From a virus, in IMG/VR virus record IMGVR_UViG_3300047300_000682, positions 1 through 20,791 of that record: a DNA stretch of 20,791 nucleotides. The stretch is one strand, 5' to 3'. A model generated the notes under the pieces. That model was not told the DNA's origin. It ran no database searches and worked only from the letters and a program-made list of their open reading frames with translations. The number at the start of each line of letters is the position of its first letter. Within the stretch, counting starts at the first letter, position 1. Below, piece after piece: positions 1 to 15,959 of this stretch. Both the position numbers and the translations under genes were made by a program.

Positions 1-3000
1 CTTGGCAACAACCTTAGCGTAAGGATTCTGAGAGCCTCCAAGTTCATTCACATACGACATCTTGCGAGCCTTGTTGTACTCTTGGATACGCTGGTTCTTG
101 GCGTTGTTGACGATTTCCCAAGCAGGTGCTGTCTTGGTCATAATAGCCATAACAGGTTTTTCACCGCTTGTCTGGACTACTGTAGACCTATAGGACTTGT
201 GAAGATTGCTATCAACCTTCTCTGCGATAGGACTCTTAATCTTGATTACCGCATAGGCGTGACCCTTAGGTACATTCCTAATCATCGGCTCGGCAAGCAG
301 GTCACCGAATACACGATTGGCTTCAGCGGCTGTGAACTTGCTTGTCTTATTGGCATTCCAAGACTGACCTCCAATAACCTCACGCATCTTAAGGTAGGCG
401 TTTCCGCTTACTTCCTTAGACTTTGCGATTCTAGCAAACAGGCTTTCGATAAAGAGTTTTCTGTTCTCGAAACTATGCTGAGGAAGTTCATCGAGAGCCT
501 GAGTCATAATATCCTTATACGACTCTGTTTCATCGAACGAAATCTTCTGCTTGTCAGTTCCCTTCTTCTTTCCAGAAACAAACTGCTCGTTGGATGCGTC
601 AATCATATGCTGTCTGAGCGTCTCAGGACTCATCGCACCCTTATCTACAAGGTGGTCTAGAATCTGAAGAACAGACCTAGTACCAGTAGGGCTTTGGAAA
701 ATCTTGTCGTTATCAGGCTTAACCAATGTGATGAACGATTCAGGCTTTCCGAACTTTCTGCCATTAACCTTGATAGCCTCATTCATCCACTTGACCAAGA
801 CAGATGATTCTCCTTCTCCAGCAAATGTGCTAGCCCAGAAGTCAGCGAGGTCTCCGTGAAGCATATGGAAGAACATACCTCCCTGAAGGTTCTCGACTGT
901 CTTTGTGCTAATCTTCAGGTCTCCGACAGCCATAGTGTCGGCTGTGTGGGCGATGCCTTTCAGTTTACCGATTTCAAGACCCTTATAGGAATCGCTCAGT
1001 TCAATCTTCTTTGCCGCAATGCCTTTCTGTAGGAGGTCAGCACCGATGTTTTGAACTAGTACGCTTGGTGTTCCTGCTGTCGTAGGTGTCGTGTCGTCAG
1101 ACTTGAACGAGAGTCCTAGGTCGCTACCAATACGGACTCCCTTGCCACGGGGCATAGACTCCTGAAGAGGATATCTGATAGCACCTTGGTCTTGGTCAAG
1201 CAAGGCTCTGGTAGCCGTGTCAACTCTGTCCATACCGATGTGCGTGTCGATGATAGCCGTGTTGTCCTTGACCTTGTCAGCCATAACAACGAAAACAGTA
1301 TCGGCACTACCGCCATCGTACACATTCTTGATGATAACGCCATCGTGACCGCCAGCCCTAGCCTTATCAAAGATTTTCTCGTATTTAGCCCCGTCAAAGC
1401 AGTTGAAGCCGTAGTCCACAACGAACGGGTTGTTGAACTTGATGGCGGCTCTGACCTGACGATAGCCTTGCTCGCCCTGCATAGGGTCAGCATAGCCGAA
1501 CGAGGTCTTGGTCTCGCCTGACAGGAACACACCGACCTTATCCTTGTCGCTCATATGACGAGAGCCAAGTTTGCTGGTGTCGAATTCCCTAGAGGTAAGC
1601 AGTTCGTTTGAACTTGTTCCGTGCGTAGCGACTGTGGTAACAGGCTTGCCAGTCTGGAACTGGGCATCGTACTGCTCGCCAAAGAACACCTTAGCCATAT
1701 TGTCATAGCCAACGCTTGTGCGTCTGTGGGTGTTGATATAGTCGAGGATAACCTGTCCGTCACGCTTGCCGCCCTTTGTGGCTCTTCCGTATGCAAGTCT
1801 GATGTCGTTATATCTCTGCAACAGGGCTGTCACATTCATCAGTTCCTGACGCTGGATTTCACGCTTAATTCCCTTTTCTTTGGAAGCGTAGAAAGCATCC
1901 TCCATTTGCTCCTTCATCTTCTGAATCCTATCCACACGAGCCATAATAGCCTCGGTAGCATTCAGTACTGTCTCAGGGTCTGACTGACGGAGTTTGATGA
2001 AGTTATCGCTATAGAACTCTTCACGGGTCTGACGGATAAGTTCAGTACCAGCGTGGAAAGCCCTTCCTGCGTCAGTCTCAAAGATGTCTCCAATCCTTCT
2101 TCCTTCGGCAAGAGTGTTATCATCGAACACCTTGAAGTTCTGCTGTTGCTTCTGTTGGCTTTCAATGACCCTTACGATACGCTTTTCTGTTTCGGCTCTA
2201 TCAGCAGTATAAGCCTTCTCCATAGCAACGCTGGCGGCTTCCTTGTCCTTGAATGAACCAATAACCTCCCCGTTGTTGCTGAAGAGTTTGCTAGCACCAT
2301 TAGCGTCTGACACAATCTTATATCCTGATGCGTGTTTGAAGATATCGCCATTAGGAGTGCGTTCAGACTCCATATCAGAGACCTTGAAGTTTCTGCTGAG
2401 GTCGCTATGAGCGTTGTCGAGATTGAAGTCGTAACGGGTAGGAAGGTCGCTCCGCATAGGAGACATCAAATCCATACTGAAGTTTGTGACTGTTGATGTC
2501 TTTCCTCTTGGAATCTCAGCGATAGGCTTATTGAAGTATGTGGCACTTTCACGCTTAGCCATACCAAGGAACTGGTGCATCACATTTCTACGCTCAGCAC
2601 CAAATCCGTCTCCACGGGCAAGTGACGGAATAAGTGAGGATTCAACACGGGTGTTATCCGTGCTAGCCTTGCTAGCGTTGCTTAGGTAATCAAAGAACGA
2701 CTGGTCAAAGGCGTTTCTATCGCCCTGCCAGAGGTCTCTAACCGCTTGGTCAGCCCAGAGGGTATTTCCTCTAGCGTCGATGACATTCTTGTCTAGTCCT
2801 TTCATAACAAAGGACATAGTGCCATCTTTCTTAACAGAAATCTTGTATCCAACGACAATCGTATTTCTGGCTGTAATCGGAACATCAGCACCATACAGGC
2901 GAGGAGACCTCGGCCCAACTTGCGTTTCCATCGACTCCCCGTGGTAGAGATACGAGACAACATTAGAGCCTGTACCGCTGGTGATTTCTTGGATGGTCTT

Positions 3001-5739
3001 GATTCTGTCAGCAAGGATTTGAGTGATGTGACCTTCCTTGACAAGATGAGCCAGCATCGTGTCGTTGAACTTAGTTCCAAGAGTGCTTGAAGCGACAAAG
3101 TTTCCATCTACATCTACAAGACCAGCAACATCCTTAGGGTCGAGTTTAGATAGAGATTCGTGGATAGCCTTGCCTACAGCGAGACGCTCCAATTTAACTT
3201 GAGCCTCTGTGACAGCCCTAGGTGCTCCGTTCTTGTCAAAGAAGAACCTAGTACCATCCATACCGCTACTTTCAAAAAAAGCCTTGCGGGACTCAGGAGA
3301 CATAGTTCTTACATCAACGCTATTAGAGCCTCCCTTGTTTCTTCCACCTGCGGCACGGAGCAAGTCCTGCACAGCGTAGTCGATAGCGGAACTCCGTTGG
3401 GCGAGCGTTCGCTTTCCGTTATTAGGAGCAAATGACTTGTCAAACGATTTCGTAAAGTCACCGAATGTAGGATTCTGCTTTGTTATATTAGCCTGCCAGA
3501 AGTCCAAGAAACTGTTCTGGACTCTGTCCATCATACCACGAATGCCTTGAAGTTCTCCCCCGTGGAAGAGATAGTCAAGGGGCTTGCCCTTCATAAACTG
3601 AGTGGCGTAGTGAGCACCGAACTCTTCAACAATCTTATCCAAGGCACGGGCAGAGTCAGGATTCATCTTTGTCGTAGCACCAGCCTTCTGGTACTCGGCA
3701 TAGTGAGCATCAAACTCAGCGATACGCTTCTTGACTTCAGCAACAGGCAGTTTATTCCCGTTAGCATCTCTAGTATACATCAGTTCTCTTCTGACAAACT
3801 GTCTTAGTTCAGTAGGGTCAACTTCAGAGCCTCTGATTCTGACACCATTTGCATCGAACTCGCCAAGGATAGCCTTAGCAAATTTATCTCTGAACATACC
3901 TTTCATAACAGTCTCGGCAAAGACTGCGTGGAAGAGTTCGTGGTGCATTACATTGTTGCTCTTGGCTTCCGTGTTGATATGTACTGTAATCTGACGCTTT
4001 CCAGTAGCATCCATATCTGTGTACATCACGAAACCTTCTCCACCCCTGAAGGCATCAGCACCAGCCGCAAACTCTACAGGGAAACCCTTAGCGTCCAGAA
4101 TCTTCTTTCCTGTTGCAGGGTCAACCTTATGACCATCGAGGTCAAGACCCCTGCTTCTCAGGAGTGCGACTTGGTCAGCGTGGTTACCAACAACAAGTCT
4201 CATATCAGGAGCAATGCGGTCAAGACCAGCAATGACCTGCAAAGCACCAGCCCTGTCGCCATTAAGCGTAGCAAGCGTAAGATACGCCTCCGTAGCCTTA
4301 TAGTTCGGATGGTTCGTAGCCTTCATACTTTCGACCACAAAACCACCTTGAACCTCAGCCCTAGCCATCATAGTACCACCAGAGATGTCAGCAAAAAGCC
4401 TGCCAGCACCAGCACCGACACCGCCAAGGGCGATACCAGCACCAATGCCGTGACCAAGACCTTCTTCACCTCCGCTGAGGTAGCCAAGAGTACCACCGAT
4501 AGCCGCCCCGTGAGCCGCTCCACCAGCGATGCCATAGCCATAGGAGAACATCGGGTCAACCGCATCAAGCACCTTAAGGAGTCCTTTAGCGTGAGCCGAA
4601 AGGTTAGGAGTCTGAATGAGAGCCTCTCTAGCAAAAGAGTTAAATCCTCTCTTGCCGCCTTGCTTAAGCATCTGTTCACCAACAGCACCAATAGCCTCTC
4701 CAATACCGACAGCCGCACTACCTGCGACATAGGCATTAGAGACGGATGAAACAACGGGGATATGACCACCAAGGGCTGAAGCGGTAGTAGTTCCGACAGC
4801 CGACATTCTGGCTGTAGCCTTCAGTTCAGCCGCAGAGATTCCAGTAGCCGTTTCAAGGACATTGCCACCAACAGCGACAGTCTTATCAATCACATTTCTA
4901 GTAGCAGAGCCAAGGAACTCAATAGGAGCACCGACACCCCACTTAAGACCACCACCGATAACAGCACTTTTAAGTTGAGCCGCACGACCACCAAGGGCAA
5001 CAAGTTTCTCGCCCATACCAACAGCCCTCATACCAGCAGTAGCGGCTTGACCAAACGGAATGAACAGGGTAGGGTCAGCAATATAAGACATCGCAAGCGT
5101 CATATCGTGGTCGATGACATTCTTGTCCATAATGATGGTGTCTTCTCCAGAGGCTAGTCTGGCTGAGTGTTTATTGAACTTACGAGCCTCTAGGAACTGG
5201 TTGTACCCTTCAGGACTACCATCACCAGCGATAGCGTTCTTGAAGCCAAACAAGACGCTGTTAGGATTAGAACTCTGAGCAACCATACCATACAGGTTGC
5301 GTGTACCCTGAGCAAAGGCTTCAATGAGCGATGTAGGGGCTGTAGCCAGAGCCTTCATCGGGTGGTCAGCAACAGCACCGACAGCCCTTCCAAAGTCTCC
5401 AAGAACAGCACTAGCACCAGCAGAGATACCCTCAAGGATGCTTGACTCGTGCGTCTTGTTATAAGCGACATACTTCAGGTATTCGTCCTGAGTAGGTATG
5501 AAGTCCATATCCTGCTTGAGAGCCTCTGCGACATCTTCACCCGTCATAGGGGCGTTGATTCTGTCAATAGCCGCTTGGCGTTCAGCAGGGTCTAGAGAAT
5601 CAAGATACTGAGTTGTCTGCTCGTCAAACTGCTGACCTTCGCCAATTTGATTAGCGTAAGCCTGCTGAGGCTGTTGGGCAAGGAATTGCTTGCGTTCTTC
5701 TTGACCAATCGGAACGCTATTGTCATAGAGATTATCCAT
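1..5739 (-). CDS. Giant polyvalent ejection protein (HEXXH peptidase + ART-like), 3' partial
   Basis: The frame is open from ATG at 5739 to the left edge: 1,913 codons without a stop, so the C-terminus is missing. Residues about 95-455 contain several Ala/Gly-rich hydrophobic stretches, densest at 400-455, which could insert into membrane. Residues 599-604 read HHELFH, an HEXXH zinc-peptidase motif (H600, E601, H604). EEFGAHYA at 705-712 may give the third ligand. Residues about 1370-1495 resemble the ART-PolyVal family: HGTSS at 1373, GVFLSG at 1403, FNNPFVVDY at 1435, GHDGVI at 1464, then a final beta strand. The rest resembles other phage large polyvalent proteins. It lies one base after the 813-aa gene, in the place T7 gp16 takes after gp15. 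I infer a virion protein delivered with the DNA that modifies or cleaves host or virion proteins. The domain calls are motif-level; neither activity is shown. Confidence 0.87.
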   Translation of the reverse strand, partial: MDNLYDNSVPIGQEERKQFLAQQPQQAYANQIGEGQQFDEQTTQYLDSLDPAERQAAIDRINAPMTGEDVAEALKQDMDFIPTQDEYLKYVAYNKTHESSILEGISAGASAVLGDFGRAVGAVADHPMKALATAPTSLIEAFAQGTRNLYGMVAQSSNPNSVLFGFKNAIAGDGSPEGYNQFLEARKFNKHSARLASGEDTIIMDKNVIDHDMTLAMSYIADPTLFIPFGQAATAGMRAVGMGEKLVALGGRAAQLKSAVIGGGLKWGVGAPIEFLGSATRNVIDKTVAVGGNVLETATGISAAELKATARMSAVGTTTASALGGHIPVVSSVSNAYVAGSAAVGIGEAIGAVGEQMLKQGGKRGFNSFAREALIQTPNLSAHAKGLLKVLDAVDPMFSYGYGIAGGAAHGAAIGGTLGYLSGGEEGLGHGIGAGIALGGVGAGAGRLFADISGGTMMARAEVQGGFVVESMKATNHPNYKATEAYLTLATLNGDRAGALQVIAGLDRIAPDMRLVVGNHADQVALLRSRGLDLDGHKVDPATGKKILDAKGFPVEFAAGADAFRGGEGFVMYTDMDATGKRQITVHINTEAKSNNVMHHELFHAVFAETVMKGMFRDKFAKAILGEFDANGVRIRGSEVDPTELRQFVRRELMYTRDANGNKLPVAEVKKRIAEFDAHYAEYQKAGATTKMNPDSARALDKIVEEFGAHYATQFMKGKPLDYLFHGGELQGIRGMMDRVQNSFLDFWQANITKQNPTFGDFTKSFDKSFAPNNGKRTLAQRSSAIDYAVQDLLRAAGGRNKGGSNSVDVRTMSPESRKAFFESSGMDGTRFFFDKNGAPRAVTEAQVKLERLAVGKAIHESLSKLDPKDVAGLVDVDGNFVASSTLGTKFNDTMLAHLVKEGHITQILADRIKTIQEITSGTGSNVVSYLYHGESMETQVGPRSPRLYGADVPITARNTIVVGYKISVKKDGTMSFVMKGLDKNVIDARGNTLWADQAVRDLWQGDRNAFDQSFFDYLSNASKASTDNTRVESSLIPSLARGDGFGAERRNVMHQFLGMAKRESATYFNKPIAEIPRGKTSTVTNFSMDLMSPMRSDLPTRYDFNLDNAHSDLSRNFKVSDMESERTPNGDIFKHASGYKIVSDANGASKLFSNNGEVIGSFKDKEAASVAMEKAYTADRAETEKRIVRVIESQQKQQQNFKVFDDNTLAEGRRIGDIFETDAGRAFHAGTELIRQTREEFYSDNFIKLRQSDPETVLNATEAIMARVDRIQKMKEQMEDAFYASKEKGIKREIQRQELMNVTALLQRYNDIRLAYGRATKGGKRDGQVILDYINTHRRTSVGYDNMAKVFFGEQYDAQFQTGKPVTTVATHGTSSNELLTSREFDTSKLGSRHMSDKDKVGVFLSGETKTSFGYADPMQGEQGYRQVRAAIKFNNPFVVDYGFNCFDGAKYEKIFDKARAGGHDGVIIKNVYDGGSADTVFVVMADKVKDNTAIIDTHIGMDRVDTATRALLDQDQGAIRYPLQESMPRGKGVRIGSDLGLSFKSDDTTPTTAGTPSVLVQNIGADLLQKGIAAKKIELSDSYKGLEIGKLKGIAHTADTMAVGDLKISTKTVENLQGGMFFHMLHGDLADFWASTFAGEGESSVLVKWMNEAIKVNGRKFGKPESFITLVKPDNDKIFQSPTGTRSVLQILDHLVDKGAMSPETLRQHMIDASNEQFVSGKKKGTDKQKISFDETESYKDIMTQALDELPQHSFENRKLFIESLFARIAKSKEVSGNAYLKMREVIGGQSWNANKTSKFTAAEANRVFGDLLAEPMIRNVPKGHAYAVIKIKSPIAEKVDSNLHKSYRSTVVQTSGEKPVMAIMTKTAPAWEIVNNAKNQRIQEYNKARKMSYVNELGGSQNPYAKVVAK

Positions 5740-5740
5740 A

Positions 5741-8182
5741 TTATCTTCTCTTGTTAGCCTCGATTCTGGCTTGCTGTTCAACAGATTTTACATCACCTGC
5801 TGTGGGAGCAAATGTAACTTGAATCCCTGCGTTGTTGTTCTTAAGAGCCATTTCGTTAGATTTTAGCAGACCTTCTAGGGTTTGCTTACCTACGATGTCA
5901 AGGGCAAAGAAAGCAGTAGGGTCAGCGACACGCTTCTGGAGCATTTCGTGTTCAGCGATGGCAATCGGGCCAGTTCCAATAGTTTCAAGACGAATAGCCG
6001 CCTTGAGTTGCGTGATAAGAGACCTTGCAGTTCCCCAGTCTTCGTTCGGAATGAGGGTTCTTCCAAGTTTGTCCTTCTTGTACATAGCAAGAAGTTGAGG
6101 AACGATGGTGCGAATCTTTACAGTATCATCGTGAAGTTGCAGGAACTTCTCGGCATTCTTTTCGCCACCTTTAACAAATCCAGCAAGTTTGATGCCAGAA
6201 CCCTTTGTACGCTCTTCAGGAACAATTCTATTACCCTGCACAGTTCCATAGCGATACAGAGATTGCTCGCTGATTTCCTTGTCAGACATACCCTTTTCAG
6301 GCTTAACAGGAGCGATGTATTGAGCACCCTTGGAGGTAATCATAACCTGACCGCCATCAGGGGCAGGCATAAACTGTACATCGGTCTCAGGGCGAATTGA
6401 GCGATAGACAGCGTCAAGAGATTCAGGAATGACTCCACCCCTGTTCTCGATAAACCACTTCCTGACATATTGCTTTTCTTCTGCATATGTCATATCACGC
6501 TCAGTCGGAACATCTGTCTTGATTCTCGTATTAAAATCAAAAGGTCTTGCAAGAGTTTCAGCGTATGATGGCTTTTGTTCAGCAGTCTTTCCAACACCAA
6601 CAGTTGAAGGCTTAAGTTCAGCAAGAGTCTTTGCCGTAGCAGTAGCCTTAGTTCCAGCAGAAACAGCCTGACTTCCAAGTTCCTTATTCAGTTGGTACAT
6701 CTGGTCAGCCGTCATAGGCGTATCCATAGGAATGCCTAGTTTTTGAGCCGCTTCTGTTACATTCTTCCCAGCGTCTGAGTATCTTGAGGGAAGTTTAATT
6801 TTTCCATATCCACCACCAGAATATCCAGTATATGTTTCTACAGATGTAGGATTATTCTGGATTTCAAAAGAGTTAATGCTTCTTGCGATATCACCAACTG
6901 TGATGTTGCCACCACTTCTAATTGTTTCTTCAAGCGTCTTTTGTGTATTCTTGATTACAGACTTAGCAAACTCAGCAACAGCCGCATCTTCAGCGGTCTT
7001 AGGCTTAATTTCTTTAACCTTACGCTCAGCAAGAATCTGTTCGATAGGTCTTGTGTCCTTGTCATCTGTATAAGATTCAGGCTTAATAGACTCAAGTTCC
7101 TTTTCTCTTTTCTTGATAGACTTTTCAAGTTCAACTCGCTTAGCGTGTGTCTCGCTTAGAGACTCTCCAGTCTTTTTCCCATAACCAAAACTAAAGGTTT
7201 CATCAAGAGCCGCCTTGTCTTTTTCAATAAGACTTTCAGCGTCTTTGACAGCCTTTTCATACTTTTGTTTACCTGTAAGAAGAACTGGGGCTTTAGCAGT
7301 ATCAGAAACAGGAGCAGTAGTTGTCTTGCCAGCCGCTTTTTCAGCCGCAAGTTTCTCAGCAGTAGCCTGTGAGAGTCTTGTATCTACGGCAGATGTAGTA
7401 GCACCAGCATAAGCCTCGGCTTCCTTGGCGTAGTCTGTAACTCCAGATTCATCTGTAGCGGCATTTCCAGCAAGATTCTTCCAATCTGAAAGACCCCTTA
7501 GAATTGTATCTCTGAATTTAGGGTCTGTCTTAGCAAGGTTTGGGTCTGCTGAAAAAGCGTTAGTCCAGCCATCAGCAATCTGATGAAGAGCACTTTCTGT
7601 ATCAAGACCAGACAATTTAGGGTCATTCTTCTTTGTGAGTTCGATGTATTCTCTGTTGTTCTGGATGTTCCAGTCAGTACTCTTGTCAGGCTGAAACGGA
7701 AGAGCCTCAATTGTGACACCAAACTTATCGCTAACCTTAGGTTTAGCATCAAGGGCAGATTGAACTCCCTGTCTAGTTCTGCTGACATTGCCCTCCTTGA
7801 AGATGGCAAGAGCGGGAGCAATGTTGGCTTGGAAGGCTTCAGCCTCAAGCAGGAGAGCCTGCTTCTGAGCCTTAGACATCGTTTCAAATCCACCAATCTT
7901 CTTGAGGATAGGGTCGAACGATTCTGCAAACGGAGCAAGTTCAGGGTTTTCCTTGATTTGCTTAGTCAGGAACTCAAAGTTTCCAGCAAGACCCTGAGCC
8001 TTGGCTGTAAGCAGTTGATTCTCCTGCTCATTCTTAGCATAAGCCTTGATGCCCTCAGCAAGAGTATTGCCTAGGTTGGCAAATGTAGCAGAGGTCTGCT
8101 GAGCCATCTGACCATAAGCAGACACGAGATTTCCCGTGGAAGCCTCAATACCGCTTTGATATCTTTGAAAAGGAGAAGCCAT
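5741..8182 (-). CDS. Putative internal virion / ejection protein (gp15-like position)
   Basis: An 813-aa soluble, mostly helical protein with no signal peptide or membrane segment. The N-terminal 120 residues are Ala/Gln-rich helices. Residues about 270-430 are highly charged, Lys/Glu-rich and probably coiled coil. The last ~140 residues contain a helical segment with EHEMLQKRVADP, of a kind I recognise from C-termini of phage injection and other virion proteins. It sits between a 280-aa gp14-like and a >1,900-aa gp16-like gene, with 3-bp and 1-bp gaps, which supports an ejectosome role as in T7 gp15. No enzymatic motif is visible. The start is ATG at 8182 with upstream AAATAATTT and no clear Shine-Dalgarno. 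The coding call is secure; the function rests on order and composition. Confidence 0.85.
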   Translation of the reverse strand: MASPFQRYQSGIEASTGNLVSAYGQMAQQTSATFANLGNTLAEGIKAYAKNEQENQLLTAKAQGLAGNFEFLTKQIKENPELAPFAESFDPILKKIGGFETMSKAQKQALLLEAEAFQANIAPALAIFKEGNVSRTRQGVQSALDAKPKVSDKFGVTIEALPFQPDKSTDWNIQNNREYIELTKKNDPKLSGLDTESALHQIADGWTNAFSADPNLAKTDPKFRDTILRGLSDWKNLAGNAATDESGVTDYAKEAEAYAGATTSAVDTRLSQATAEKLAAEKAAGKTTTAPVSDTAKAPVLLTGKQKYEKAVKDAESLIEKDKAALDETFSFGYGKKTGESLSETHAKRVELEKSIKKREKELESIKPESYTDDKDTRPIEQILAERKVKEIKPKTAEDAAVAEFAKSVIKNTQKTLEETIRSGGNITVGDIARSINSFEIQNNPTSVETYTGYSGGGYGKIKLPSRYSDAGKNVTEAAQKLGIPMDTPMTADQMYQLNKELGSQAVSAGTKATATAKTLAELKPSTVGVGKTAEQKPSYAETLARPFDFNTRIKTDVPTERDMTYAEEKQYVRKWFIENRGGVIPESLDAVYRSIRPETDVQFMPAPDGGQVMITSKGAQYIAPVKPEKGMSDKEISEQSLYRYGTVQGNRIVPEERTKGSGIKLAGFVKGGEKNAEKFLQLHDDTVKIRTIVPQLLAMYKKDKLGRTLIPNEDWGTARSLITQLKAAIRLETIGTGPIAIAEHEMLQKRVADPTAFFALDIVGKQTLEGLLKSNEMALKNNNAGIQVTFAPTAGDVKSVEQQARIEANKRR

Positions 8183-9030: not shown

Positions 9031-9444
9031 TTATATAAGGTTGATGTATTTATTGGTAATTTCAGTTAGGTCACCGAACCTCAAAGCCCACTTTTTACAG
9101 TTGCTCCAATGGGGGTAACGCAGTTTAAATTCGTTTACAAGGTTTTTAGTAGACTCTGAATCGACCGAAATCATATCTAATATGCACAGGTCGTACAGGT
9201 GTTCCCTGTCCTTGGGTATCTTGTTATTAAATGTGAACAAAGACTCCTCATCATTTGTAGCCTTTATTGGGTAGGCAATGCCGATGCCAGTAACCTTGTT
9301 GTCAACAGTTGATACAAACAGGTAGTCGTGAGTGAACGCCCATTTCAGGTAGGTCTCTGTTGTCACATCATCAAAGCCAAAAGTCTCCCCACGCCCGTGG
9401 GTTCTATGTTCGCTGACAAAGACTTTCAGTTTAGACAAAAACAT
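9031..9444 (-). CDS. Small virion-cluster protein, possibly GNAT-like
   Basis: A 137-aa mixed alpha/beta protein. Residues 41-60 (YLFVSTVDNKVTGIGIAYPI) form two beta strands around a DNK turn, resembling the central strands of the GNAT N-acetyltransferase fold. A hydrophobic strand around LYDLCILDMISVD (83-95) and a helix before PHWSNCKKW (111-119) follow. The Q/RxxGxG/A acetyl-CoA loop of GNATs is not evident, so it may be a degenerate or purely structural relative. Small GNAT-like proteins occur beside tail and internal-core genes in some podoviruses. Its start overlaps the fibre gene stop as TGATG, so it is probably translated by coupling. A plain hypothetical protein is the alternative; I am sure it is a gene, not what it does. 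Confidence 0.8.
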   Translation of the reverse strand: MFLSKLKVFVSEHRTHGRGETFGFDDVTTETYLKWAFTHDYLFVSTVDNKVTGIGIAYPIKATNDEESLFTFNNKIPKDREHLYDLCILDMISVDSESTKNLVNEFKLRYPHWSNCKKWALRFGDLTEITNKYINLI

Positions 9445-10613
9445 CAGGCGGTCTTGTACTTGTAGATTCTGAATTTAGACCCAACCATAGGGGTTGTGGC
9501 AAACCCAGAGAAGAATGTGACAGGGCTTGTCGTATGGAACATAGCCATAGCAGAAGAAGACCCAGCGTATGTATCAATCTTTACTGTGTCGGCTGTAAGA
9601 ACGACTCCTGTACCTTCGTGCCAAGAAAGCGTTCTATTATAAAACATATATGCGTTTGTAGCAATTGAGTACGACTCAAGAGACTTATATGTTCCAGAGT
9701 AAACAGTCTGTGAGCCATATCTTGCACCAACAATCATCCCATAGCCAGTATTGCCGTACAGCGTGTAGTTAATTTCAAAACGCCAGATTTCTTCTGTAGG
9801 CTTAGTAAATGTCGCAGATGTAAATACAGCGTTATAATTTCCTGGGGTAACGGCATTCCACGGAGCAATAGTTTCTTCAATCACTTCATACAGCACATAC
9901 CCTGTAGAACCATTCACTTTAAGAGTACCCGTGAAGTTAGCGTCACCAGTAGATGTAAGAGAGCCTGAGGCAGTAACATTTCCACTAATAGCAAGATTTC
10001 CGCCAATTGTAGCCTTTCCAGAGACTGCAAGTTGACCAGAAATATGTTCACTTCCAACAACCCTGACAGAGCCTTTCTTTGTGTAGTTAAGCGTACCGCT
10101 GGCGGCAACAGGCGTTGTCTGACTGATGACAAACGAGAATGAATCAACAGTAAGAACTGTAATTATCTGCTGTCCTGTGTACGCTGAGTTAGAAGCGACT
10201 ACATCAAGAAGCATATTGCTTTCAAGCCCGTGAGCGGTATGGGTAACGACAGCCGTGATTCCATCGACAGACGAGAACGACTTCCCAGTAACAAGCACCC
10301 CGTCATTGGGAGTCTGCTTGATGTCAGTATTAGGCTTTCCGTTGATGATAGGAGTAACAGTAATGTTCTCGGTAGAAGTTCCAAGCGTGGCATTAAGTCC
10401 GCTATTTAGGATGTCTCCAATTGTTGCTTCCTTAAGCACTCCACTATCATTAACAATTGTGCTATCTGTAGCCTCAAGGGTATTTGCCGTGATGCTAGGC
10501 TGGTCTGTGATAGCACCAACAAGCAGTTGGCTTGAATCAACAAGTTGGTTAAGACGAGCACCAGTCACCTGTTGTCCGTCTACGAAAGTATCGCCTTTAG
10601 AAATCTGAGCCAT
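9444..10613 (-). CDS. Tail fibre / receptor-binding protein
   Basis: 389 aa. The N-terminal ~40 residues (KGDTFVDGQQVTGARLNQLV) have the pattern seen at the virion-attachment end of many short podoviral fibres. Residues about 115-180 (THTAHGL, then YTGQQ, then SFSFVIS) resemble the small beta FCCH-like domain repeated in phage fibres. Residues about 190-235 are a short-period repeat of SG-plus-beta-strand units (ISGQLAVSG, IGGNLAISG, LTSTG, FTGTLKVNG), a likely trimeric beta-helical stalk. Residues 240-389 form an aromatic-rich beta domain, the probable receptor-binding head. The length suits a short fibre. It follows the nozzle-like gene by 2 bp. No intramolecular chaperone or hydrolase motif is visible. 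Host specificity cannot be read from the sequence. Confidence 0.88.
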   Translation of the reverse strand: MAQISKGDTFVDGQQVTGARLNQLVDSSQLLVGAITDQPSITANTLEATDSTIVNDSGVLKEATIGDILNSGLNATLGTSTENITVTPIINGKPNTDIKQTPNDGVLVTGKSFSSVDGITAVVTHTAHGLESNMLLDVVASNSAYTGQQIITVLTVDSFSFVISQTTPVAASGTLNYTKKGSVRVVGSEHISGQLAVSGKATIGGNLAISGNVTASGSLTSTGDANFTGTLKVNGSTGYVLYEVIEETIAPWNAVTPGNYNAVFTSATFTKPTEEIWRFEINYTLYGNTGYGMIVGARYGSQTVYSGTYKSLESYSIATNAYMFYNRTLSWHEGTGVVLTADTVKIDTYAGSSSAMAMFHTTSPVTFFSGFATTPMVGSKFRIYKYKTA

Positions 10614-10615
10614 AA

Positions 10616-12223
10616 TTAGTATTTAGATTGGTTAGTCTTGTTCTGAACTGTTGCATAGACAAATGCAGACCTGATTGAAGGTCGTAGGTTATTCGTGGTG
10701 AATAGCAGTTGAATTCCAGACCCTATCTTTCTGATGGGGTTTCTTCTGGTTGAGTCCTCTGTTGTGCTGAATCCGAATGTATCAATTACAGCCGTAACAT
10801 CAGGGTTAACAACATCTGCCGTAGTAACAACTTGAGAGCCAGCATCAGAGACCATCTCCACCTCAGCGGTGCTAAATCTCTTATCTCCAATGCTGTTAAA
10901 TGAATAGCGTCTTGTTTTCAGAATTCCATTTATTTCAACAGACGCAAATGAGGCGGCAGACAATGTCTCAGGTATGTAGAATGGAAGCAATGGAGTTCCA
11001 GTAGCCGCTCCATACTCATCGTGATTAAGTTGCTCCATCAGGAAGATGCCTTGGTCTGTATCGACTCCATACATCCGTCTCTGATTATCCTTCTTGGCTA
11101 CGACAAAGTCAAAAACATCGAATCCAGCAGGATAGGTGTCAACGGACTCCCATTGTCTTAGGATGAAGTTATATACCAGAACAGCATTATTATCGACAGA
11201 GGAATCAAGCGGAACGGCAAGATAATATCTGTTGTTCCAGTAGGTTGCAACAGCACGATGAGCGTAAGTGCGATTGATTCGTTGAATGACATCGTCAATA
11301 GGGGCTGAGATAGGTTCAGCCATAGTAAGCAACTTCATTGACTCCGCTGATGCAGGCTGAGGTTGCAGGAAGTACACGCCATTATCAGACAGGAAGAATA
11401 CGCCTCCATTAGCCTGAACAACGCTCTTCTTGGCAGAACAACCGACATCGGTAGCCAGCGTCTTTACATACGAATCATTGGCAAGAGCGTCACCGCTGAC
11501 ATATCTGCTAGTTCCAACGCTGATGTAGAATATGCTGTTACGCATAAACACCAAGAACTCATTGAGAGTCCAAGGAGCAACACCAACCACTCTGTCATTA
11601 GAGCCGTTATTAATCGTAAAAGCGTCAAGAGCATCAAAGGACTGATAGTCCAAGAAATTGCTCACGCAGATTGTGTCGTTGTTTCTGAGCAGGTTTGTCT
11701 CCGAATGATACTTGCCTGTGACGATGAATCTATTTGCGTAGTAAAGGATGCTCTCGCAGTTTGGGAACTCCTTGTCCAGTCCAGCGATGCTAAATGCAAC
11801 AATAGTGGTTGCCATATCCCATCGTAGAGGACGCTTACTAAAACCACGGGAAATGATAACCACATCAACAGCCGCAACAACATCGCACCCGTCTTGTGTT
11901 GTAATGGTCTCTCCAGAGGGAAAACTGACCTTTGCAGACAGAAGTTCAGTCTGCGGGTTATATGTGTAAAGACCATCGCTAACTACAGCAATGATAATTT
12001 CCTGCCCTCCATTACTGATATATGTGCCTACTCCATAGATAGTCTGACCTACAAGAGCACCAACTGTCTTTCTTTGAAGACCCTTACGGACAGTAGCAAC
12101 GCCTCTGTCCATCCTAAAGTTCTGAGACTGGCTAACAATACCTTGGGGCAAAGCACTAGGATTGTCACGGCTATTAAGCCCGACAAATGCTAGGTCTCCA
12201 TCCTTCTGGTATTCATTAGGCAT
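10616..12223 (-). CDS. Tail nozzle / hub-like protein
   Basis: A 535-aa beta-rich protein without membrane segments. The opening (GLNSRDNPSALPQGIVSQS, then NFRMDRGVATVRKG) matches a pattern common to podoviral tail proteins in which a site-defining NPxxLPxGxxxxxxNxxxxxGxxxxRxG segment precedes beta-propeller-like repeats. Later segments such as FIVTGKYH, FLVFMRNSIFYIS, GVFFLSDNGVYFL and NNRYYLAVPL look like blades. Proteins of this kind form the tail tube end or nozzle (compare T7 gp12 or P22 gp10 in role). It starts at ATG 12223, whose A is shared with the stop of the 35-aa membrane peptide (TAATG), and is followed by the fibre gene, fitting the site where fibres attach. The exact homologue would need profile alignment. 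Confidence 0.85.
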   Translation of the reverse strand: MPNEYQKDGDLAFVGLNSRDNPSALPQGIVSQSQNFRMDRGVATVRKGLQRKTVGALVGQTIYGVGTYISNGGQEIIIAVVSDGLYTYNPQTELLSAKVSFPSGETITTQDGCDVVAAVDVVIISRGFSKRPLRWDMATTIVAFSIAGLDKEFPNCESILYYANRFIVTGKYHSETNLLRNNDTICVSNFLDYQSFDALDAFTINNGSNDRVVGVAPWTLNEFLVFMRNSIFYISVGTSRYVSGDALANDSYVKTLATDVGCSAKKSVVQANGGVFFLSDNGVYFLQPQPASAESMKLLTMAEPISAPIDDVIQRINRTYAHRAVATYWNNRYYLAVPLDSSVDNNAVLVYNFILRQWESVDTYPAGFDVFDFVVAKKDNQRRMYGVDTDQGIFLMEQLNHDEYGAATGTPLLPFYIPETLSAASFASVEINGILKTRRYSFNSIGDKRFSTAEVEMVSDAGSQVVTTADVVNPDVTAVIDTFGFSTTEDSTRRNPIRKIGSGIQLLFTTNNLRPSIRSAFVYATVQNKTNQSKY

Positions 12224-12330
12224 TACTGTGAGATGATAGAGAAGTACACAGCCTTAATCTTTTCAGACCAGCGTGTGCCGACATAAACACCACCAAGGAA
12301 GGTGATAGTAGCGATGATGAGTGTAATCAT
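12223..12330 (-). CDS. 35-aa single-pass membrane peptide
   Basis: A very short frame, ATG at 12330 to TAA at 12223-12225, encoding 35 aa. Residues 2-18 (ITLIIATITFLGGVYVG) form one hydrophobic segment, followed by a basic/amphipathic tail (TRWSEKIKAVYF). It overlaps the upstream gene by ATGA and the downstream gene by TAATG, so it fills exactly the space between two genes. That makes it much more likely to be a true gene than chance. Similar tiny membrane peptides with an FxGVYVG core occur among phage late genes. A lysis accessory (holin-like) or membrane-docking virion component is possible; nothing in the sequence decides between them. Confidence 0.7.
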   Translation of the reverse strand: MITLIIATITFLGGVYVGTRWSEKIKAVYFSIISQ

Positions 12331-12509
12331 TTAGCGAGAGTAATCTTGAGTTTAGTCAGTTCAGCCTTAAGTTCAGCCTCAGTAGGCTTTGTGACAAGAG
12401 CAAGAGATGTGACAGCCTTGCCGCCATCCTTGAACTCTTGATAGCCAAGACAGACATCATCTTGAATAAAGGCTGTCCAGCCCTTGGGAATTGTTTTTTC
12501 AATACGCAT
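12327..12509 (-). CDS. Small hypothetical protein, 60 aa
   Basis: 60 aa, ATG at 12509. A beta-like N-terminal half (EKTIPKGWTAFIQDDVCLGYQEF) is followed by a charged helix at the C-terminus (PTEAELKAELTKLKITLAK). There is no membrane segment and no motif I recognise. It starts two bases after the stop of the 325-aa repeat protein, and its TGA overlaps the ATG of the 35-aa membrane peptide, so it belongs to the coupled tail operon. It may be a small tail component or an assembly helper; I do not recognise the family. Confidence 0.7.
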   Translation of the reverse strand: MRIEKTIPKGWTAFIQDDVCLGYQEFKDGGKAVTSLALVTKPTEAELKAELTKLKITLAK

Positions 12510-12511
12510 AG

Positions 12512-13489
12512 TTAGATAGAATAGAAGCCTCCAGAACCATCCCAGTACCAGTTGTATGTTCCATCGTTATAGATGTAAGTTCCGTAGGGGTAGTAGAATT
12601 GTCCGCTGTATTGATAGTATCCACCAGCACCATCCCAGACATACCTATCTCCACTCCATTGGTCGTAGTAGTAGTTTCCACTACCAGAAGGAACTTCTTG
12701 GTTACTTCCAACACCAGTATAACTGATGCTATCAAAGATGATAGTTCCGATTGTGACATAACTTCCACCAGTACCAGTAGTATAACCGCCAGAACCATCG
12801 GCAACATATGTATTATAAAGTCCGTTGTTATAGAAGTTTCCACTCATTGACGGAACTTCTGTTGTCAGATTAGAACCATTGGCATAGAAGTAGCCCGTTG
12901 CGTCAGGGGTAAACCCTCCTGCATCCATATTGTATGAGCCACCAGAGCCATCGTGGAAGTAGTCGTATCCGTCAATAACTCCATTGTTATAGTACATACT
13001 GCTACCAGACGGAACTTCAATAGAACCAGCCCTATGAGCATTAGGTACATAAGCAATGAATACACCTGAAGAAGTGAAACTATTTACGATGTTAATATTC
13101 GTATAACCACCAGAGCCATCGTGAGCAACATCAGCAGTAAATGTACCAGACTGATAGTCGTTTCCATTGATGTTTATTGTATAAACGCCAGATGTGGCAG
13201 AGAATACAGTACCATATGACTTCCAAGCCAAGTCTCTTACATTAGACCAGTTAAGGATTGAGCCACCAGCACCATCGGCAATAATGTCTACTGTGACAGT
13301 CTGAGTCGGGTAGTTAGTAGAGTTATAAGTGAAATAAGCACCGCCCTGAGCAATAGGATACTCATACCCATAGTTCGTGGATATGACTGTACCAAACGGA
13401 GGGTACACAACTGCACCGCTTATGACGCTAACTTGGAAAGAGCCTGTGCCAAAGCCGTCTCCAACTATACTGGAGAGTCCGACTCGCAT
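12512..13489 (-). CDS. Gly/Tyr-rich repeat protein, putative structural or adhesin-like
   Basis: A 325-aa protein of low complexity dominated by Gly, Ser, Tyr and Asn. The motif DG(S/A)GG occurs six times, at residues 72, 124, 180, 231, 286 and 317, so five copies are spaced 51-56 residues apart and the last is 31 further on. A second marker, EVPSxS followed by an aromatic pair and often NNG, recurs at 158, 211 and 265. The C-terminal ~60 residues are very rich in Tyr and Trp. This suggests tandem beta modules, as in solenoid or beta-hairpin fibre domains. It lies between the 100-aa beta protein (TAATG overlap) and tail genes, so a surface-exposed virion protein is plausible. No signal peptide or enzyme motif is seen. 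I do not recognise a named family. Confidence 0.82.
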   Translation of the reverse strand: MRVGLSSIVGDGFGTGSFQVSVISGAVVYPPFGTVISTNYGYEYPIAQGGAYFTYNSTNYPTQTVTVDIIADGAGGSILNWSNVRDLAWKSYGTVFSATSGVYTININGNDYQSGTFTADVAHDGSGGYTNINIVNSFTSSGVFIAYVPNAHRAGSIEVPSGSSMYYNNGVIDGYDYFHDGSGGSYNMDAGGFTPDATGYFYANGSNLTTEVPSMSGNFYNNGLYNTYVADGSGGYTTGTGGSYVTIGTIIFDSISYTGVGSNQEVPSGSGNYYYDQWSGDRYVWDGAGGYYQYSGQFYYPYGTYIYNDGTYNWYWDGSGGFYSI

Positions 13490-13791
13490 TACACTTGGGC
13501 GTAGGCGATATGGACTGTAGTTCCAGCGGTGTCTGAAATGGCCTGAACAGCACCATTGTAGTTCTCAAGGGTGCAGGACTGATTAGGCTGAAGTTCAAGA
13601 CCAACTGAGCCAGATGTGGCAAATACCACTTGGACAACAGCCGCATTATCCTTGTTCTGAACAACTAGAATGACACGCTTGTCATAAGGGTTGGTTGTAG
13701 GAGCAAGAATCTGAACGGGAGAAGTTCCGACAGTCACATCTGAGTGCGTGAAGGACTTTGTGAAGGGTGTTGAGAAGACGATATTAGCCAT
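13489..13791 (-). CDS. Small beta-rich virion protein, 100 aa
   Basis: 100 aa, almost entirely predicted beta strand: SPVQILAP, then KRVILVVQNKD, VVQVVFAT, LELQPNQSCTLE and TTVHIAYAQV. The pattern 'normalise value - NxxxKRVxLxVQN - strand - G - strand - TxVxIAYxQ' is common in small phage structural proteins with a jelly-roll or Ig-like fold. It sits one base after the adaptor gene and overlaps the repeat-protein start (TAATG). It could be a head-completion or capsid decoration protein, or a base for the repeat protein encoded next. No enzymatic residue is apparent. The gene call is firm; the role is inferred from fold appearance and position. Confidence 0.8.
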   Translation of the reverse strand: MANIVFSTPFTKSFTHSDVTVGTSPVQILAPTTNPYDKRVILVVQNKDNAAVVQVVFATSGSVGLELQPNQSCTLENYNGAVQAISDTAGTTVHIAYAQV

Positions 13792-13792
13792 T

Positions 13793-14560
13793 TTAGTAAG
13801 TGTTAGTCATATTAATCCTGCCGAATTGGGACTGCTGACGGAGCGACTTATCGTACTCCATATCAAGCACTTCCTTAGCCTTGGCATCAAGCGTAGCGGC
13901 TTCAGCGATTTGTCCTTCTGAGACAAGCCAGTTAGCCGCCGCCGCCCAAGCCATAAAGGACGAGAAGATATACGGGATATCAATCTTAGTCCAAAGGGAG
14001 GGATTAGTATTAGGGTTCTGACCAGCCGTAGTTGAGACGGCAAGACAGGTGTAGAAATTGCCAGCGTGGGGCTTACCCAGAACTGGAGTGTATGAGCCTG
14101 TTCCAGACCCAGAGTCAAAGTACACCTGAACACCCTGATAGTACACCACAGACGGGCTGTAGAGTTCACCAGTAAGGATAGGACAGGCGATACGATAGAG
14201 ATACCAACCATCAGAGATAGCGGTATTCAGGATGACCTTTTTGTCAGTACCATTGTCATAAAGTTGGTACTGAAGTTGAATAGCCTTTGTGGTCTCTTGG
14301 GGATTCCGTGAGAACACAGCAAGCACTTCACCCGCTTCTGAGGCAGGCGTGAAGTATGTGACATTGTTAGCGTCAACGGATGTAGTGAACTGAACTAGCC
14401 TGCAAATGTCAGACCAGTTGTTAGCCTCCCAAGCCTCACGCATACGAGCGTTAGAGAAGTCACGGAACTGAGCAAATGTGTCAGCCGTTATGTTCTGTCT
14501 GTCGTTTCCAGAGTACTGGAGAGCGTCAAATAGGATTTGAGAGTAGTTCGATGTTCTCAT
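13793..14560 (-). CDS. Head-tail adaptor / connector protein with carbohydrate-binding-like insert
   Basis: 255 aa. The N-terminal helices (FDALQYSG, then FAQFRDFSNARMREAWEANNW) and the C-terminal helical part (about 197-245, ending near LDMEYDKSLRQQSQFGR) look like the helix bundle of podoviral adaptors such as T7 gp11 or P22 gp4, which sit under the portal ring. Between them, residues about 135-195 contain YYQGVQVYFDS, then GNFYTCLAVSTTAG and NPSLWTKI. This resembles the CBM5/12-type module (YxxGxxVxY, YxC, P..W) often found inserted in virion proteins. The ATG overlaps the stop of the 121-aa gene (ATGA). The assignment is inferred from gene order and helical layout; the insert could bind glycans or only decorate the neck. 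Confidence 0.82.
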   Translation of the reverse strand: MRTSNYSQILFDALQYSGNDRQNITADTFAQFRDFSNARMREAWEANNWSDICRLVQFTTSVDANNVTYFTPASEAGEVLAVFSRNPQETTKAIQLQYQLYDNGTDKKVILNTAISDGWYLYRIACPILTGELYSPSVVYYQGVQVYFDSGSGTGSYTPVLGKPHAGNFYTCLAVSTTAGQNPNTNPSLWTKIDIPYIFSSFMAWAAAANWLVSEGQIAEAATLDAKAKEVLDMEYDKSLRQQSQFGRINMTNTY

Positions 14561-14930: not shown

Positions 14931-15959
14931 TTAGGCGGTGAAGTCAAACACCCCGAAAGCGAGGGGGTTGTAGACGCAAAGTCCAGCAACCGCTTCAATC
15001 ATTCGGGCTTCGCCACCACCAGAGTTCGGGAGAGCCGTCACGCCAGCGACATTGCCGCCATAGCGAACTTCGACTTGGTCAAACGGGATGACATAGCCAA
15101 CGAATGTCGAGCCAACGCCAGCGGAAGCCTTCAGGTAGTGGGACGGGTGGAGTCTCAACTTACCGAAATCGCCCTCGAAAATATCGACAGACGAGATGTA
15201 AGCGGACTCATTCGACTCACGATTGAAGGTACGAATGGCGGTCTGAGTGTTGGCAGAGCCAGAGGAGGGAGTCGTGAACACGAGGTTCGTGAACGCTCTC
15301 TTCAGGGCAGTACCGCAGAGGAGGTCGTAGTCCTTGAACTGACCAGTCTGTGTGTAGATACCCGTGAGGACATCCTGAACGACAGACTCAGTAAGGGCGG
15401 CAGTACCGACAGTCGAGCGATTGGCGGTAGGTGTGCAGAACTGGTCGATGACAGGAAGGGTTGTGTCCTTAGAGGCAATCGGTCTGAGCCACTTGTGGAG
15501 ACCACGAGTGAGGTACGGGAGTGTGCCGTTGTCAGCCTGAGCACCATTGTCGGAACAGAAGGTCGCTTCCATATCACGCTTCAGGGCTTGGATGCCCTTA
15601 GCGACATTGTTAGCGAGTTCGTCACGAACACCAGCAACAGTCGAGATATCCTGCGTAAGCGGGGACACACGGACAGAGCGTCTGAAGACTTGGATGTAGT
15701 TCGACAGTTCAGCACGATACTGAGTCGAGCCATCCTTGGTGTAGTTCTCATAGGTCGAGACATCCGTGCCGTCAACTGTACCAGTTGTCTTCGGCAGAGG
15801 GAGAGAGTCAGCCTGCCATCTGAAAAGAGTATTTCCAGGCTTGCTGCCCTTCTTAGCCATCGAGGTGAACGGGGTATCCTTGGCATCAACGAGGGCGATG
15901 AGGTCAGCAAGGTCTTCTCTCTTACCAGATGAGAAGGAAGGTTCTGTGAGGTTAGCCAT
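14931..15959 (-). CDS. Major capsid protein, SU10 type
   Basis: 342 aa, the subunit of the icosahedral head. The N-terminal region SGKREDLADLIALVDAKDTPF followed by about a dozen residues and LFRWQADSL is the signature of the SU10-like major capsid family, an HK97-fold group: a 'REDL..li...D.kDTPF.s' arm, then a strand before a W/D pair. The central part (QDISTVAGVRDELANNVAKG, then LKRDMEATF) forms the long spine-helix region, and the C-terminal half is beta-rich. It follows the scaffold-like gene by 25 bp and precedes neck genes. There is no N-terminal propeptide cleavage site that I can see. The start at 15959 has an A/T-only leader (TATATACTTAT) and no Shine-Dalgarno, which is striking for what should be the most highly made protein. 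Confidence 0.93.
   Translation of the reverse strand: MANLTEPSFSSGKREDLADLIALVDAKDTPFTSMAKKGSKPGNTLFRWQADSLPLPKTTGTVDGTDVSTYENYTKDGSTQYRAELSNYIQVFRRSVRVSPLTQDISTVAGVRDELANNVAKGIQALKRDMEATFCSDNGAQADNGTLPYLTRGLHKWLRPIASKDTTLPVIDQFCTPTANRSTVGTAALTESVVQDVLTGIYTQTGQFKDYDLLCGTALKRAFTNLVFTTPSSGSANTQTAIRTFNRESNESAYISSVDIFEGDFGKLRLHPSHYLKASAGVGSTFVGYVIPFDQVEVRYGGNVAGVTALPNSGGGEARMIEAVAGLCVYNPLAFGVFDFTA

Follow-up and report, generated by a model that had tools for sequence, protein, structure and literature searches.

The DNA analysed here, referred to as the window, is a 20,791-base virus record in which positions 12512–13489 form an exact minus-strand open reading frame with an ATG start that encodes a protein of 325 residues. 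The gene, termed the DG-repeat gene after its recurring DG[SA]GG motif, is proposed from its reading frame, motifs, a unit HMM, and an AlphaFold2 model to encode a fibre or adhesin. It sits in a minus-strand virion block in the order 350-aa gene, portal gene, major head protein gene, adaptor-like gene, 100-aa gene, DG-repeat gene, 60-aa gene, and nozzle-like gene. The 350-aa gene is a putative terminase by position only, the 726-aa portal has tblastn matches to annotated portal proteins, and the major head protein (14931–15959, minus strand) matches phrog_1328 with an E value of 5.9e-51. The 255-aa gene that borders the slot block upstream (13793–14560, minus strand) lies between the genes for the major head protein and the nozzle-like protein and is conserved in relatives; its product matches no PHROG at E 0.01 and no Pfam model above its threshold, and by its position we propose it to be a head–tail adaptor. 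The 100-aa gene (13489–13791, minus strand), proposed to encode a fibre base, ends in a stop codon that overlaps the start of the DG-repeat gene (TAATG). On the other side, the 60-aa gene (12327–12509, minus strand; GWTAF family) is followed by the gene for a 535-aa nozzle-like tail protein (10616–12223, minus strand), the downstream slot border, whose PHROG matches include head closure Hc3, tail, and virion structural proteins. The adaptor-like and nozzle-like flanks in the window, and the same slot in related contigs, place the DG-repeat gene among tail or neck genes. Beyond the nozzle gene, positions 9444–10613 encode a 389-aa protein that is perhaps a second fibre and has weak matches only, and positions 1–5781 (minus strand) hold one open frame of at least 1927 residues that runs off the end of the record and possibly encodes a large internal virion protein.

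The DG[SA]GG motif occurs six times in the protein, starting at residues 72, 124, 180, 231, 286, and 317, and a second motif, EVPSxS, occurs three times, as EVPSGS at residues 158–163 (13001–13018), EVPSMS at residues 211–216 (12842–12859), and EVPSGS at residues 265–270 (12680–12697), all on the minus strand. In 20,000 composition-preserving shuffles, DG[SA]GG has a mean count of 0.015 and a maximum of 2, and EVPSxS a mean of 0.00015 and a maximum of 1; the observed counts of both motifs far exceed chance expectation. An HMM of the repeat unit, trained on 143 units from other proteins and on none from the window protein, recognises six units in the latter (E = 1.6e-15) and is positive for none of 200 shuffles of its sequence. 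The six and three motifs listed in a reading made from the sequence alone are thus borne out. The period of about 51–56 residues given in that sequence-only reading describes the first four DG[SA]GG steps (52, 56, 51, and 55 residues) and fails at the last, which is 31 residues; the EVPSxS spacings are 53 and 54 residues. The composition is, as had been noted, rich in Gly, Tyr, and Asn (55, 40, and 25 residues, respectively, with no Cys), and the C terminus is aromatic in the Tyr/Trp-rich manner described.

At the DNA level, the search for repeats that had been suggested for both levels yields imperfect direct repeats, for example, 42 nt in three copies at 67–71% identity with a spacing of 159–162, and no tandem array is detected by TRF. 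The repeats are old at the DNA level. Because no tandem array is found, recombination between alleles is a likelier source of copy-number change than DNA slippage.

An AlphaFold2 monomer model of the window protein, built from a 27-sequence alignment (A1), has a mean pLDDT of 75.8 and a pTM of 0.39. The pLDDT is about 90 over residues 31–140, below 50 at residues 1–24, and low also at residues 191–205. As visualized in this model, all six DG[SA]GG motifs sit between two successive β-strands: DGAGG at residues 72–76 (13262–13276; strands 63–71 and 77–89), DGSGG at 124–128 (13106–13120; strands 110–123 and 129–138), DGSGG at 180–184 (12938–12952; strands 174–179 and 185–189), DGSGG at 231–235 (12785–12799; strands 225–230 and 236–241), DGAGG at 286–290 (12620–12634; strands 277–285 and 291–299), and DGSGG at 317–321 (12527–12541; strands 313–316 and 322–324), all on the minus strand. 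Since every motif occupies such a turn, the repeat unit is a predicted β-hairpin, of which the protein has six; the packing of the hairpins relative to each other is predicted without confidence. The repeating β-modules expected from the sequence are therefore recovered, and the model does not show a single irregular domain.

The array is modular and, contrary to what the earlier description of tandem modules implied, not purely tandem. The protein comprises an N-terminal peptide (residues 1–24; 13418–13489) that is proposed to be a dock and is exchanged between several types in relatives; a conserved proximal part (residues 25–140; 13070–13417) that contains the first two DG hairpins and is present in 27 of 27 aligned members; a variable repeat array (residues 141–295; 12605–13069) that bears the three EVPSxS motifs; and a conserved terminal unit (residues 296–325; 12515–12604) that ends 4 residues past the last DG motif and is delimited by alignment and HMM, all on the minus strand. 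Among the 27 aligned proteins, the anchor spans 23–29 residues, the proximal part 104–150, the middle 3–155, and the terminal unit 15–39, with median pairwise identities of 34.5, 30.8, 11.6, and 37.5%, respectively. Given the narrower ranges of the other segments, it is the middle array that accounts for the variation in length. Complete small members have one to six units by HMM and lengths of 174–395 aa, which agrees with the expectation that repeat number would vary among relatives, and length follows unit number with a rho of 0.63 in 49 proteins shorter than 420 aa, some of which are cut by contig ends. In 51 of 52 distinct HMM-positive proteins, the C terminus lies no more than 10 residues past the last motif-like site, the exception being L104 (48 residues).

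The low identity, the Gly/Ser/Asn-rich composition, and the large length variation would also be expected if the repeats served passively, as a low-complexity spacer or shield with a nearly irrelevant sequence that varies by neutral drift. We consider this improbable: the unit signature is kept in 52 distinct proteins, residues 31–140 have confidently predicted β-structure, and the proximal domain and last unit are conserved. The co-inheritance of a partner gene and the substitution of the DG-repeat protein by unrelated fibres that are fibritin-like or weakly lectin-like, both described below, also argue against a spacer.

Comparisons with known families and structures returned few matches. 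The window protein has no Pfam match at E values up to 1, and none of the 27 members matches Pfam or NCBIfam at E values up to 0.01, in keeping with its earlier description as a protein of no known family; Fibritin_C is absent from the DG-repeat proteins in these same searches, and the Pfam Collagen model (Gly-X-Y stretch) matches the relative L084 and not the window protein. A PHROG search gave no match for the window protein, and three single-member matches among the 27 proteins (best E 0.0013, one to a head closure family) were taken as noise. Searches by tblastn of 50,697 phage records with the window protein, and of the phage collection with three DG relatives, found nothing; in both cases the low-complexity filter may hide Tyr/Gly-rich proteins, so the absence of DG-repeat proteins from cultured phages is not established by these negatives. 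Phage C75C1 is related to the window by tblastn through its portal and major head protein, and its frames of more than 60 residues (33,372 of 39,484 bases) contain no DGxGG motif. A pattern search of viral contigs derived from the window protein gave five stretches, none confirmed.

A Foldseek search of the PDB with the window model returned nothing at E 0.001 (best 0.11), and a profile search of solved structures with alignment A1 returned no match at E values up to 1; these negatives are not taken as evidence of a new fold. Foldseek against BFVD matched three uncharacterised proteins of uncultured Caudovirales phages, A0A6J5QYY7 (E = 6.5e-12), A0A6J5MSM5 (5.2e-10), and A0A6J5NUZ5 (5.4e-10), at 19–30% identity; one BFVD match is named collagen triple helix repeat. 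The best neighbours in a second structural search are fibronectin type I modules (Z = 2.6, rmsd 2.7–2.8, 41 residues), which are likewise small tandem β-modules, but the match is far too weak for a relationship. Fibronectin type I modules carry disulfides, which are impossible in the window protein because it has no Cys.

The occupancy of the slot, which is bounded by the 100-aa and nozzle genes, was surveyed in 81 loci, the window and the best 80 of 152 viral loci that encode a nozzle-like relative. The slot is readable in 57, holding a DG-type protein in 30 and another protein in 27, and unreadable in 23, owing to a contig end or to a 100-aa gene not found by the rules used. In L024, the slot, around 5587–6001, is empty. 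Under a looser rule that includes fragments, a DG-repeat gene is present in 36 of the 81 loci. The DG-repeat proteins that occupy the slot in related phages are 174–336 aa in length. Among the alternative occupants, those of L062 and L063 match Fibritin_C (36.2 and 30.5 bits; Pfam cut-off 21), that of L064 scores 20.5 bits, just under the cut-off, and all those of L062–L065 have PHROG tail or fibritin neck-whisker matches. Fibritin_C-type proteins thereby take the DG position in one group of short-tailed phages (L062, L063, and, below the cut-off, L064); the DG-repeat protein itself has no match to the domain. Sub-cut-off Laminin_G_3 or ConA-like matches are found in the occupants of L023, L036, L057, and L079 (E 2e-4 to 8e-3). 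Among the 13 other occupants scanned, those of L020, L026, L032, and L078 have no match and that of L002 has a weak one only. This pattern of occupancy is what an adhesion-fibre slot would look like. Fibritin-like or weakly lectin-like alternatives, together with the occurrence of DG repeats in a collagen-like fibre, lend support to the fibre-like role that had been suggested from the sequence.

The 60-aa gene (GWTAF...KPTEAELKAEL, alignment A3) lies 3′ of the DG-repeat gene in 29 of 30 DG loci and in 0 of the 27 others. With slot proteins more than 90% identical removed, the counts are 21 of 22 DG loci and 0 of 17 other loci. The signature is absent throughout the fetched DNA of the 27 non-DG loci, and the sole DG locus without the gene is L046. 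No 60-aa gene was seen beside the DG-repeat genes of the distant loci L090, L104, L114, and L121, where frames of at least 90 aa were considered and a shorter gene could be missed. A different small gene, of the YRIT type, is present in 6 of the 27 non-DG loci. Small genes between slot and nozzle are observed in L057 and L060 (YRIT type; 115–126-aa type). The 60-aa protein is possibly a fibre assembly helper, and each fibre type may have a helper gene of its own.

Sequence divergence is concentrated in the slot. When the DG loci, 22 after removal of redundancy, are compared in 231 pairs, the slot gene is less conserved than each of the other three genes in 222 pairs, with a median identity of 31.5%, compared to 61.9% for the adaptor, 48.5% for the 100-aa gene, and 69.2% for the nozzle. 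L015 and L050 have slot proteins that are 91.5% identical and nozzle proteins that are 69.1% identical. Conversely, L077 (DG) and L079 (non-DG) have nozzle proteins that are 95.4% and 100-aa proteins that are 91.9% identical, with different slot proteins and different N termini. L015 and L017 have a common N terminus and then diverge. These sequences show allelic exchange among close relatives in both directions.

The N-terminal peptide covaries with the 100-aa protein. Across the 22 loci, the first 22 residues follow the 100-aa protein with a Mantel rho of 0.72 (p = 0.002, the lowest value that 500 permutations allow) and follow neither the adaptor (−0.04), the nozzle (0.13), nor the C-terminal 60 residues (0.02). 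The 100-aa protein shows values of 0.17 with the last 100 residues of the adaptor and 0.19 with the nozzle, and the adaptor and nozzle have a value of 0.59. The 60-aa partner weakly follows the 100-aa protein (0.33) and the N terminus (0.38). This set of 22 includes the near-duplicates L034/L059 and L037/L038; with stricter thinning, the 100-aa protein and the N terminus give 0.65 across 38 proteins, and a held-out set of 20 gives 0.54. With the distant phages included, the covariation is weaker and less specific: the value for the 100-aa protein and the N terminus is 0.63 and that for the 100-aa protein and the nozzle 0.54 (n = 20), and the 100-aa protein also weakly follows the C terminus (0.24–0.34). 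We read these values to suggest that anchor and 100-aa base move as one block. Plain linkage of adjacent stretches could be an alternative cause of the covariation, yet the equally close adaptor is unlinked. Because L077 and L079 differ in anchor despite their closely similar 100-aa proteins, no single anchor type has this protein as its exclusive dock, and a strict lock between the two is disfavoured. The resulting layout, a putative exchangeable N-terminal dock followed by a variable part, is fibre-like, with a conserved last unit and hence a distal end that is not uniformly variable.

The 100-aa protein is modelled by AlphaFold2 as a β-sandwich with a pLDDT of 89.9. Foldseek ranks subunits of Bacillus endospore appendages first (E 5e-4 to 2e-3), followed by the turret of the haloarchaeal Haloferax tailed virus 1 (2.5e-3) and, among unrelated jelly rolls, the cement protein of Helicobacter phage KHP40 (5.3e-3). 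In a second structural search, many jelly rolls tie at Z values of 7–10, including the PM2 spike protein (9.8), and a profile search of solved structures gives weak, unrelated matches only. The predicted fold is thus a jelly roll, a match to which does not specify where in the virion the protein would sit. The cement and turret resemblances would accommodate a DG-repeat protein mounted through the 100-aa jelly roll on the capsid surface, as a head fibre, turret, or decoration that sticks to surfaces or mucus-like polymers and does not decide host range. Locus L103, whose major head protein is of another type (phrog_283), encodes a 794-aa DG-repeat protein within its set of head genes, a short distance past the one for the major head protein. 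The gp10 protein of phage SU10, predicted to share an Ig-like fold with the phi29 head fibre, has no assigned location (PMC9509320). Both observations fit such an appendage. We nevertheless regard it as unlikely. The jelly-roll matches are unspecific, with 596 of 991 chains at Z values of at least 5; the alternative slot occupants resemble neck or tail fibres; and in the window's group the DG-repeat gene is flanked by adaptor-like and nozzle-like genes, the interval to which the SU10 numbering assigns tail fibres.

Taken with the analogies below, the sequence and model evidence indicates that the DG-repeat gene probably encodes the adhesive part of an exchangeable tail-collar fibre of a short-tailed phage. 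The repeat architecture in sequence and model, the slot, the switching of its occupants, the partner association, and the covariation of anchor and jelly roll are observed; from them we infer a virion location, docking, a chaperone role, glycan binding, and an effect on host range. A short N-terminal peptide would dock the fibre, probably onto the jelly-roll protein encoded just upstream, and would be followed by the conserved proximal domain and a variable number of β-hairpin units. Long units of ∼50–55 residues would carry an EVPSxSGNYYxNG insert, and short units would have ∼26–31 residues. Each unit would turn at DGxGG and display its Tyr/Trp-rich strands toward a cell-surface glycan, the conserved last unit would form the fibre tip, and the downstream 60-aa protein would aid folding or assembly. 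Recombination may swap repeats or the whole slot, tracking changing receptors, most plausibly glycans. Several observations weigh against this reading. The empty slot of L024 implies that the function can be lost or placed elsewhere, and a candidate second fibre gene (9444–10613) lies downstream. The low pTM and the poorly predicted stretches of the model, the L046 locus without the 60-aa gene, and the different occupants of L077 and L079 count on the same side.

Two published systems offer analogies only. Similar to the DG slot, the adhesion fibres of SU10, gp12 and gp13 (long) and gp16 (short), are numbered between adaptor gp11 and nozzle gp17 and dock by their N termini on adaptor or nozzle (PMC9509320). 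The SU10 fibres are described there as trimers with other folds, and the DG slot is instead preceded by a 100-aa jelly-roll gene; tblastn of DG-repeat proteins against the phage collection found no match. In the Alteromonas phages A5 and V22, the tail fibre and the chaperone encoded downstream of it pass as a unit between distant phages (PMC10579305), as the DG-repeat gene appears to be swapped with its own downstream helper. The DG helper differs in being only 60 aa and a putative chaperone, and the DG fibre in being a hairpin-repeat protein. Modular, exchangeable phage adhesins as a kind are well known; the repeat module and cassette studied here appear undescribed in the searchable literature, in that a search of open-access papers for the DG motif strings found no phage paper on the motif. 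Isolated phages are far fewer than uncultured ones, in which the parts that bind receptors mostly lack annotation. A repeat signature in a fixed slot with a marker partner gene offers a route to a fast-changing adhesion gene in such phages and to asking whether the host can be predicted from the number or type of hairpins. Should the repeats prove to bind glycans, they would represent a new compact binding scaffold.

The repeats extend beyond the phages that share this slot. A motif scan of viral contigs gave 53 stretches, and all newly fetched ones except those of L109 and L117 look member-like by eye, with several on contigs already in the set. In the distant short-tailed phages L090, L104, L111, L114, and L121, a DG-repeat gene follows a 97–99-aa gene and an adaptor-like gene. 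In L084, DG-like units (E = 0.0089 only) are joined to Collagen and phage tail repeat domains. The protein of L126 has a sub-threshold CBM_5_12 match (20.4 bits; cut-off 26.2).

Among 18 bacterial or archaeal contigs with the DNA motif, a multi-unit array is present in L147 only, where a 575-aa chromosomal protein of a Planctomycetota (3116–4843, minus strand) contains eight units of the DG or DGxCG type and scores an E value of 7.1e-13 against a profile widened to Cys variants and of 0.0047 against the original one. Four more of the 18 were not counted: L135, whose E value of 0.0016 comes from a single motif, and L139, L140, and L145, which have two to four loose motifs in apparently unrelated proteins. 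The L147 protein has an apparent hydrophobic leader by eye, and its sequence suggests that the DG module also serves cellular secreted proteins. By the same token, the window protein might be a late, non-virion protein that is exported or shown on the infected cell, for example, to block adsorption of a second phage. This is very improbable, given that the start of the DG-repeat gene overlaps the stop of a structural-type gene inside a virion-protein block, that the same repeats are fused to collagen-like and phage tail repeat domains, and that the window protein has no signal peptide recognisable by eye. With the tail-collar fibre retained as the preferred reading, a wider proposal can be put forward tentatively: DGxGG hairpins may be an undescribed general adhesion module shared between several unrelated tailed phages and the secreted protein of at least one Planctomycetota, and a three-gene cassette of jelly-roll base, matched-anchor fibre, and 60-aa helper may be traded against fibritin-like or lectin-like cassettes, with specificity changed by adding, dropping, and shuffling hairpins. 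In the L147 protein, a long stretch is in near-exact tandem duplication, and the neighbouring genes look like cytochrome oxidase genes.
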